47,368 bases of DNA, from assembly GCA_903863905.1 (NCBI GenBank), contig CAIPDT010000029.1:1-47368 (forward strand). The letters are read 5' to 3'. Both the position numbers and the translations under genes were made by a program. Position 1 is the first letter of the stretch. Every line of letters starts with the position of its first letter. Source of the stretch: an uncultured Methylococcaceae bacterium (GTDB lineage: Bacteria > Pseudomonadota > Gammaproteobacteria > Methylococcales > Methylomonadaceae). Below are positions 31,052 to 33,628 of the stretch, piece by piece. Under the pieces are notes generated by a model that saw only the letters and a list, made by a program, of their open reading frames with translations, had not been told where the DNA came from and made no database searches.

Positions 31052-31597
31052 ATGACACAGGATTCTCAACATCTTATTTGGATCGATCTTGAAATGACCG
31101 GACTCGATCCCGATCGTGATTTAATTATAGAAATAGCCACCATAGTCACCGACAAAAACTTAAATATCCTTGCCGAAGGCCCTGTGCTTGCCGTGCATCA
31201 ATCTGATGAAGCCTTAGCGGCCATGGACGAATGGAACCAAACCCATCATGGACAATCTGGCTTAATTGAGCGGGTAAAAGCGTCCACTATTAATGATCAA
31301 GAAGCCGAGAGGTTAACTCTAGAATTTTTAGAGCACTGGTTGCCCAAAAATACTTCACCGATGTGTGGCAATAGTATTGGTCAAGATAGACGTTTCTTAT
31401 ACCGTTATATGCCCAACTTAGAAGCCTTTTTCCATTATCGAAGCATTGACGTTTCAACCGTTAAAGAATTAGCCGCACGTTGGGCCCCCGAGGTAAAAGA
31501 TGGCTTTAATAAAGAATCTAAGCATCAGGCTTTAGATGACATTATTGAATCAATTGAAGAGTTACGTTACTACCGAGAACATTTTATCAAGTTTTAA
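31052..31597 (+). CDS. orn: Oligoribonuclease
   Basis: Essential 3'-5' exonuclease that finishes RNA decay by cleaving di- and short oligonucleotides, including pGpG. The 181-residue protein has the DEDDh residues: [10 protein letters not shown] near the start, [11 protein letters not shown] in the middle and HQALDDI near the end. Length is standard. crcB follows after two bases and may be cotranscribed. Confidence 0.98.
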
Positions 31598-31599
31598 TC

Positions 31600-32307
31600 A
31601 TGAACCAATTAATCTCCATTGCTTTAGGCGGCGCCTGCGGTGCGGTTATCCGTTTTTTAATGTCCACCGGTTTGTATCAATGGTTAGGGCGCGGTTTTCC
31701 GTATGGCACCTTAGCTGTGAATGTGGTGGGGTCCTTTTTAATTGGCTTATTAACTGAAGCCTTAATCGTGCAACGGATTGCCATTGCCTTTGAATATAGA
31801 GCCGCCATCTTAGTCGGCTTTATTGGCGCCTTTACTACTTTTTCGACCTTTTCTTTAGAAACCGTTTACTTATTAGAACAAGGCAATATCACCCGGGCGG
31901 GCTTAAATATAGTGGTCAGCGTATTAGGCTGTTTATTAGCGGTTTGGATAGGTTTAGTGTTTGGGCGTAGTTTGTTTTATTATTCGGGTGGGGTCTTTAA
32001 TTGGAGTGGTGGGGTGGTGCCTTATGCGCTATTGATCGTCAATGCCATAGGGGCTTTTATTATTGGCATCGTCGTTACGGTATTAATGCAAAAAGTGGCG
32101 CTGTCGATAGAATATAAAGCCACCTTGATGATAATTATGGTGGGGGTGTACTTAACCTTATCAGGCTTGTATTTAGTATTATTTTTGGTTGAAAATAACT
32201 ATACCTTTGATGCCAATGCCAACTTGATGCTAGGCACCTTTGTTGGCAATGGTTTGGGTTGTTTATTGATGATTTGGTTAGGCTTATTAGTCAGTAAACA
32301 GATCTAA
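31600..32307 (+). CDS. crcB: Double-length CrcB/Fluc fluoride channel, fused and probably inverted repeats
   Basis: Ordinary CrcB has about 125 residues and four helices and works as an antiparallel dimer that exports fluoride. This protein has 235. Residues 1-123 are a complete CrcB: GGACGAVIRF, pore N41 in AVNVVGSFLIG, and the phenylalanine box with F81 and F84 in GAFTTFSTFSLE. Residues 140-233 align to helices 2-4 of the first half (PYALLIVNAIGAFIIG with N148; EYKATLMIIMVGVYLTLSG; GNGLGCLLMIWLGLL). The second half lacks helix 1 and its phenylalanines are replaced by leucines. Seven helices in all should place the halves in opposite orientation. It is 2 bp after orn, so no riboswitch intervenes. 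Confidence 0.85.
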   Translation: MNQLISIALGGACGAVIRFLMSTGLYQWLGRGFPYGTLAVNVVGSFLIGLLTEALIVQRIAIAFEYRAAILVGFIGAFTTFSTFSLETVYLLEQGNITRAGLNIVVSVLGCLLAVWIGLVFGRSLFYYSGGVFNWSGGVVPYALLIVNAIGAFIIGIVVTVLMQKVALSIEYKATLMIIMVGVYLTLSGLYLVLFLVENNYTFDANANLMLGTFVGNGLGCLLMIWLGLLVSKQI

Positions 32308-32322: not shown

Positions 32323-32637
32323 TTATTTAACAATCAAACTATTATTAACCGATCTCACGCCTTTTATTGATTTTGTTAAATCAGTCGCACGCTTTAAACT
32401 CGACGCATTATCAACAAAACCACTCAGTTGTACCACGCCTCTATAGGTCGTGACGTTCACCTGAAAATAATTAAGTTTTGAATCGCCCAATATCGTGGTT
32501 TTTACCTTTGAGGTAATCGCCATGTCATCAAGATACTCTCCCGTGCTTTCATAGGTTTTTCCTCCGGCACAGCCATTAAGGGATATGATCAAGAATAGAC
32601 TTATAAAAAGACGCGTGATGACATTTAAGTAGTGCAT
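32323..32637 (-). CDS. BON-domain lipoprotein
   Basis: 104 residues. An N-terminal lipoprotein signal has the lipobox LNGC near residue 23, followed by a single BON domain (about 40-103) with DDMAITSKVKTTIL, VNVTTYRGVVQLSGFVD and IKGVRSVNNSLIV. BON proteins such as OsmY and DolP bind phospholipid or outer-membrane assembly sites and guard envelope integrity. It is convergent with crcB and probably monocistronic. Confidence 0.9.
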   Translation of the reverse strand: MHYLNVITRLFISLFLIISLNGCAGGKTYESTGEYLDDMAITSKVKTTILGDSKLNYFQVNVTTYRGVVQLSGFVDNASSLKRATDLTKSIKGVRSVNNSLIVK

Positions 32638-32770: not shown

Positions 32771-33628
32771 ATGCTACAGCCACATACGCAGGGGTTTTTA
32801 TTTAGAATGAGTCACTATAAAGTGCTTATTACAGGCTTGCTCTTAGCCTTAACACTGCCGGCTTGTGCAGAGTCAAACGTATATGAGTGGCAGGATAGTG
32901 CAGGGGGTGCGCATTATTCAGATGCTTACCACCCGCAGGCAAAACGGGTCACGCTTAAATCCAATGACGCCTTATATACGGTTAAAACTGTTTATGATGG
33001 TGACACGGTCCAGTTAGAAGATGGCCGAAAAATTCGGTTCTTAGGCATTAATACACCCGAAATACAACATCGAAATAAAGCGGCAGAAGAGGGCGGTTAT
33101 GAGGCTAAAGCATGGTTAAGTCAAAAACTGCAAAACACTCGGGTACGGTTAGAATTTGATGTGGAGAATACCGATAAATATGGCAGAACCTTAGCCTATT
33201 TAGTCACCGAAAATCATGAAGTACTTAATATCTCCTTAGTTAAAGCCGGCTTAGCTGCGGTGAGTATTTTTCCACCCAATCTATTGTATGTGCAAGAATT
33301 AAGCGCGGCTCAACAATACGCCGAACAACATCAGTTGGGTATTTGGAAAGCAGCGTCTTATGCCGTGATACCTGTTGAGCGCTTAACTAATACCGGTCAT
33401 TTTGGTTGGACTCGTTTAGTCGGCAAAGTGCAATCCATTCGAGAATCAGATAAATTTATTTTTTTAGTATTTAATGAGCAGTTTGAAGTGCGTATTGAGC
33501 GAGAAAGTGTGTCGCTATTTCCGGACTTAAAGTCTTATGTCGGTAAGGTTATTGAGGTTCGTGGTTGGCTTAATAAAAACAAAGATCACTTTTCAATGTT
33601 GATTCGGCATCCCAGTGCGATGATTTGA
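32771..33628 (+). CDS. Secreted thermonuclease-family protein with DUF4124 and a C-terminal OB-like domain
   Basis: 285 residues in three parts. After a signal peptide (around ALTLPACAES, possibly with a lipobox cysteine), residues 37-65 are a DUF4124 motif (VYEWQDSAGGAHYSD). Residues 70-198 are a staphylococcal-nuclease domain with VYDGDTVQL, RKIRFLGINTPEIQH and KYGRTLAYLV, so the Arg/Glu/Arg catalytic set appears present. Residues 210-285 look like an OB fold (LVGKVQSIRES, VIEVRGWL). The ATG at 32771 has AAGG upstream; the ATG at 32807 would give a more compact signal peptide. It probably degrades nucleic acids in the periplasm or outside. Confidence 0.85.
   Translation: MLQPHTQGFLFRMSHYKVLITGLLLALTLPACAESNVYEWQDSAGGAHYSDAYHPQAKRVTLKSNDALYTVKTVYDGDTVQLEDGRKIRFLGINTPEIQHRNKAAEEGGYEAKAWLSQKLQNTRVRLEFDVENTDKYGRTLAYLVTENHEVLNISLVKAGLAAVSIFPPNLLYVQELSAAQQYAEQHQLGIWKAASYAVIPVERLTNTGHFGWTRLVGKVQSIRESDKFIFLVFNEQFEVRIERESVSLFPDLKSYVGKVIEVRGWLNKNKDHFSMLIRHPSAMI

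Follow-up and report, generated by a model that had tools for sequence, protein, structure and literature searches.

A fused CrcB gene of Methylococcales joins a complete Fluc domain to a degenerate, probably inverted three-helix copy

Fluc proteins, encoded by crcB genes, are four-helix proteins of 120-130 residues that pair antiparallel to form channels, through which fluoride leaves the cell passively, driven by the membrane potential. The stretch of DNA considered here (the window: all 47,368 nucleotides of contig CAIPDT010000029.1, from an uncultured Methylococcaceae bacterium) carries an open reading frame of 235 residues that was originally predicted to be a fused CrcB with helix 1 missing from its second repeat. 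Such a protein raises the question of whether one chain could fold back upon itself as a channel with a single intact pore, as that prediction held, or whether two chains would still need to meet. The features on which the argument draws are as follows.

31052..31597, plus strand: open reading frame of an RNase_T-family exonuclease, upstream, ending 2 bases before the crcB start
31600..32307, plus strand: fused crcB gene, 235 codons and a stop, with an ATG start; 227 distinct complete 4+3 relatives
31600..31971, plus strand: first half, residues 1-124, a complete four-helix Fluc domain (PF02537; TM 0.90 to 5nkq_C)
31720..31722, plus strand: N41, the pore asparagine, N in 227/227 and essential in Fluc-Ec2 (PMC5636608)
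31816..31860, plus strand: TM3 motif, residues 73-87 (GFIGAFTTFSTFSLE), with a break at 79-80 and Phe-box residues F81 and F84; T79, T80, F81 and F84 in 227/227
31972..32019, plus strand: join of the halves, residues 125-140, without TM1; aligns with the CrcB TM1-TM2 loop, the profile alignment beginning at the end of TM1
32020..32304, plus strand: second half, residues 141-235, a degenerate copy of TM2-TM4, predicted to be inverted (profile matches, model, median dN/dS 0.108)
32158..32169, plus strand: L187 to L190, the second-half counterparts of F81 and F84; neither Phe of the box remains
32248..32250, plus strand: N217, at the place of S107 in TM4; N in 204, S in 14, T in 6, Q in 2 and H in 1 of 227

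A complete Fluc domain and a partial second copy

The 235-residue frame holds a complete CrcB/Fluc (residues 1-124) and a degenerate copy of CrcB TM2-TM4. As a whole, the protein exceeds the curated cut-offs of PF02537 (108.5 against 32.9 bits), TIGR00494 (113.7 against 80.45) and NF010791 (137.4 against 129), and residues 1-128 alone match PF02537 at E 2.8e-28. A CrcB match for the second half had been named in advance as a test, and it was found in two ways. Residues 129-235 alone match NF010791 best (E 1.7e-7), followed by TIGR00494 (E 4.9e-6) and PF02537 (E 1.4e-4; its 22.6 bits fall short of the gathering score, 32.9), and a profile of 20 second halves aligns with one of 23 stand-alone CrcBs at E 2.3e-25. 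The latter alignment, which at the level of sequence profiles is beyond chance, spans CrcB columns 22-129, that is, the end of TM1 through to the C-terminus; it bears out the absence of helix 1 from the second repeat and rules out an unrelated C-terminus in the homologues. A more diverged type of second half (17 sequences) also aligns with the CrcB profile, at E 3.4e-18. Individually, 19 of 37 second halves reach PF02537 at E 0.01, so that about half are recognisable as a group only.

Structure prediction gives the same division. An AlphaFold2 model built from a 143-row alignment (mean pLDDT 87.6, pTM 0.80) has seven membrane helices: residues 2-29, 35-57, 61-78 with 81-93 (the broken TM3) and 97-127 in the first half, and 142-165, 170-198 and 207-234 in the second, with short strands at 133-135 and 138-140 in the join. 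TM3 is broken at 79-80 in the first half, and the corresponding helix of the second is unbroken. The first half superimposes on Fluc-Bpe (5nkq_C) with a TM score of 0.90 and an rmsd of 1.3 A. In an earlier model from 49 rows (pLDDT 79.1, pTM 0.67) the seven spans are identical, and the fit of the first half to Fluc is weaker (TM 0.60, rmsd 4.8 A); an eight-helix protein is thus rejected by both models. As the first unit has four helices and none separates it from the second, the second unit should lie upside down in the membrane, an orientation deduced from the predicted span count, with which parallel halves would be incompatible. The expectation of a 4+3 protein, inverted by loss of a helix rather than by an added one as in the eukaryotic FEX proteins, thus agrees with both the model and the profile alignment. 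The four helices and 120-130 residues that define the family describe the first half alone, and the whole, at seven helices and 235 residues, falls outside that definition.

An assembly or frameshift artefact joining two neighbouring genes merits virtually no credence: nothing spoke in its favour, and the identical join recurs in independent genomes, among them those of cultured Methylobacter marinus A45, Methylobacter luteus and Methylomonas sp. LW13, the last a complete chromosome. In all, 227 distinct complete 4+3 proteins were collected, of 225-244 residues and almost exclusively from the methane-consuming order Methylococcales. Of the 61 closest genomes, the window's own among them, 56 gave a match: 48 fused (four of them interrupted by contig ends or unknown bases), seven of standard length, all in families f7 and f8, and one of 160 residues. 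Within the window's genus, 5 of 35 genomes (G005, G016, G023, G025 and G030), some of them nearly complete, lack a fused CrcB match at E 0.001; across a wider sample of the order, a match occurs in 275 of 301 genomes. Second halves were also used to scan named genomes, a set that overlaps the unnamed one; of the 79 loci returned, 72 encode this second half (65 completely) under titles naming Methylobacter, Methylomonas, Methylovulum, Crenothrix, Methylocucumis, Methylococcaceae, Methylococcales or 'uncultured proteobacterium'; the remaining seven (Geomonas, Citrifermentans, Pelobacter) are standard CrcBs of 124-125 residues. For fusions of this kind, which are what these two scans cover (unlike fusions would escape them), the matches listed from 369 evenly drawn gammaproteobacteria reach far into the second half without a stop in Methylococcales only, and among 299 genomes of the phylum the window's own gene alone spans the second half without stops.

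The upstream exonuclease frame is presumably an oligoribonuclease. Directly behind crcB, on the opposite strand, lies a small BON-domain protein with a lipoprotein-like start (32323-32637, minus strand; PF04972), and further downstream a Staphylococcal-nuclease-like protein with a DUF4124 domain (32771-33628, plus strand; PF00565). A search for a fluoride riboswitch brought up no Rfam family above its gathering score in the window or in 20 relative loci; a review puts the share of Flucs under such a riboswitch at about 15% (PMC11139923).

Pore residues, constraint and cut-down forms

Residues were counted over the 227 distinct proteins, drawn from 296 complete fused frames in 288 loci after exclusion of frames that held unknown residues, lacked a start or stop within the locus, or had a length other than 215-250 residues. 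The first half is that of an intact Fluc: R18, P34, T37, N41, T79, T80, F81 and F84 are kept in all 227, S82 in 226, and position 87 is E in 205 and D in 22. The TM3 motif of Fluc/CrcB, GxxGGxTTFSTFxxE (PMC3755343), is recognisable in the first half as GFIGAFTTFSTFSLE, with A replacing the second G of GG, and is absent from the second. In the alignment of all 227 proteins N41 pairs with N148, EYRAA with EYKAT, F81 with L187 and F84 with L190, just as originally proposed. Leu stands at position 187 in 147 proteins and Phe in 20; at position 190 the counts are 205 for Leu and six for Phe; a single protein has Phe at both. Other second-half residues persist—S188 in 201, N148 in 170 and N217 in 204—and at position 191 Y (172) and W (33) prevail, while the places of T37 and E87 are taken mostly by hydrophobic residues.

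These counts bear directly on the proposal of an asymmetric channel in which a single chain holds one intact pore, the part of the prediction that is not supported. Each Fluc pore is described as combining Phe80 of one domain with Phe83 of the other (PMC4969038), and in Fluc-Ec2 the substitutions F80L, F80I, F83L and F83I all abolish flux (PMC5636608). Since each domain lends one Phe to each pore, L187 and L190 together leave both internal pores of the window protein short of one Phe, and the FEX arrangement, in which one internal pore has both, is not found here. One internal pair, with F84, would be complete in the 20 of 227 relatives that have F at 187. The Phe-pair reasoning is an argument and not a proof, as other coordination schemes may exist.

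Selection has acted on both halves. Over 61 non-overlapping pairs of related genes, dN/dS has a median of 0.053 in the first half and 0.108 in the second; the value of the second half is the larger in 53 pairs and peaks at 0.397. Both halves are under purifying selection, and the second is less constrained. Mean-field couplings, computed from 227 rows with an effective number of about 99 at 80% identity, yielded scattered pairs between the halves.

The two types of second half align with each other at E 4.1e-19, which at the sequence level favours a single origin. On a tree of first halves, which has few columns and two of whose 'standard' rows, L169 and L218, are contig-edge fragments, the fused proteins need six label changes, a number that fits one fusion with later losses and several fusions alike. 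Cut-down forms occur in family f4, the family whose most diverged second halves have lost the S/T and Phe motif. One gene encodes 133 residues without a second half (G461, L351:3278-3676, plus strand), and in another, of 160 residues, a single hydrophobic stretch replaces it (G057, L049:3144-3623, plus strand). Near both genes, second-half queries matched the gene itself, and in L351 a further, weak match (E 0.005) lay 0.9 kb beyond the gene. Separately, genome G474 has both types of second half (L228 and L230), the L228 copy looking broken, with internal stops.

One chain or two

Charge bias, taken as K+R on the N-terminal face minus K+R on the other face, offers a further view of how these chains assemble. 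It averages -1.0 in 219 fused proteins (sd 1.0, range -3 to +2). Four loci, in G058, G431, G439 and G443 of one genus (family f6), instead hold two convergent fused genes, of which one protein has a bias of +3 to +5 and its partner one of -4 to -8, values more extreme than in any other of the 227 proteins; the pore residues are intact in both twins. For comparison, dual-topology proteins are listed with biases of -2 to +1, and members of antiparallel heterodimers with biases of size 6 to 7 (PMC3962082, Table 1), which some of the twins fall short of. The split between twins persists under alternative loop limits, although under strict limits the negative twins, at -2 to -4, touch the singleton minimum of -2. 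Balanced singletons together with oppositely biased twins point to the sequence signature of dual topology. The four loci are probably the product of one duplication, and the twin evidence therefore counts as a single event; the balanced charge, for its part, may be inherited rather than selected. The twins of one locus lie at L039:2546-3256 (plus strand) and L039:3562-4266 (minus strand), the others in L194, L196 and L224. A DUF190 gene sits between the L039 twins (PF02641, E 1.3e-11), and look-alike frames were seen by eye in L194, L196 and L224.

The reading towards which we lean, with a little better than even confidence, is an antiparallel pair of seven-helix chains in contact through their first halves, with the second halves as side domains. 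Each subunit would consist of a normal, complete Fluc first half and a tandem TM2-TM4 copy, lacking TM1 and lying upside down; the working channel would be an antiparallel dimer built, as in ordinary Fluc, by both first halves, which would supply two canonical pores. The second halves would not conduct; as side domains they may associate with one another on the same two-fold axis. We infer the dimer and its interface, the conduction of fluoride and whatever part the second half may play from the conservation and charge patterns and from the family, by analogy with which fluoride would be the substrate and its exit passive and driven by the membrane potential. Pairing of two chains would preserve an entirely intact first domain, and the first-half pore residues are present in 227 of 227 proteins; F81 is among them, although in a single-chain channel it would be turned towards a dead pore. 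Also in favour of pairing are the loss of both Phe from the second half, hence of any internal Phe pair, the balanced bias of 219 proteins and the opposite bias at four twin loci, and the f4 relatives that do without the second half (G461) or most of it (G057). Against it stand a constrained second half that keeps S188, N148 and N217, which an internal dimer might explain, and the precedent of FEX and engineered fusions, which show that single chains can work (PMC3755343, PMC5417652, PMC4969038); the twins, moreover, come from one genus and probably one duplication, and the negative ones touch the singleton minimum under strict loop limits.

Were the single chain instead an internal antiparallel pseudo-dimer, a bacterial counterpart of FEX, its one live pore would be lined mainly by the first half, with the missing Phe replaced, perhaps by Y191. 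Seven helices permit such a fold, as the relatives with F at 187 would permit an internal pair with F84. The aromatic residue at 191 aligns with Ser84 of Fluc-Ec2, which projects into the partner's pore (PMC5636608), and the S/T near the TM3 crossing is retained (S188), as in both FEX domains (PMC5417652). Yet the window protein and most relatives have no internal pore with both Phe, Leu at either Phe place kills Fluc-Ec2 (PMC5636608), F81 is invariant although it would face a dead pore, and neither near-zero bias nor oppositely biased twins would be expected of a self-sufficient chain. Weakened in this way, the one-pore single chain is not supported, and we regard it as unlikely. Less probable still is an ordinary Fluc homodimer of first halves, with the second half a functionless, decaying passenger retained only because its removal is rare. 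The faster evolution of the second half, the eroded f4 sequences and the cut-down genes of G461 and G057 are what decay would produce, but dN/dS remains low, the frame is open in 227 distinct proteins, and a set of second-half residues is conserved at 80% or above; neither S188, N148 and N217 nor a low dN/dS would have to persist in a mere passenger.

Pairing of two chains through their first halves admits a more tentative extension, which we consider possible while holding it rather doubtful. An even-helix, dual-topology channel would have become an inverted repeat by losing a helix upon fusion, without the dimer ever being internalised, leaving an assembly of 14 helices in which a live first-half channel sits with a dead, fossil second-half channel acting as scaffold or regulator; in one genus this seven-helix unit would later have split into oppositely oriented twins.

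Relation to known Fluc fusions and inverted repeats

The Methylococcales form belongs to Fluc by the score, motif and fold of its first half. In fold, TM3 break and tested pore residues this half matches Fluc-Ec2, Fluc-Bpe and La1/La2, homodimers and paired heterodimers alike. The charge pattern, too, is that of Fluc homodimers and heterodimers, singletons being balanced and gene pairs opposite. What differs is that an inverted three-helix repeat has been added in the same chain, giving 225-244 residues rather than 120-130, so that each member of a pair here is a seven-helix protein. Fluc fusions have been described for eukaryotes and for engineered proteins. Among the papers searched, by title and opening of the abstract, no natural fused CrcB is named in bacteria, which is no proof of novelty.

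FEX, too, has two homologous Fluc domains per chain, the second inverted and one degenerate. It is, however, eukaryotic, unlike the present protein, which comes from a bacterial contig with Methylococcales relatives, and it is described as having captured an extra helix (PMC3755343): two four-helix domains and a linker helix make nine helices (PMC5417652), as against 4+3 here, with a helix lost and no linker helix. Of its two Phe pairs FEX retains one and has lost that of the other pore (PMC5417652), whereas here both Phe of one domain are gone. Engineered concatemers (Laf-TM; Ec2 WT/WT) likewise place antiparallel domains in a single chain, as predicted here, but they are man-made and use a glycophorin helix as the inversion linker (PMC3755343, PMC4969038). 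The concatemer with both Phe of one domain changed was reported as 'biochemically intractable' (PMC4969038); the Methylococcales protein is thus a natural counterpart of a mutant that lay beyond its makers' study.

The DUF606 family resembles this one in uniting dual-topology singles, gene pairs and fused two-domain proteins (PMC3962082). The same paper describes even-helix units such as EmrE as 'evolutionarily frustrated' for duplication and fusion; set against that discussion, here an even-helix unit is fused by dropping one helix. Helix loss would thus be another route from a dual-topology dimer to an inverted repeat, one that is order-wide in bacteria. As unfused relatives, fused singletons, fused twins and cut-down forms coexist, the step from dimer to inverted repeat becomes testable within one gene family.
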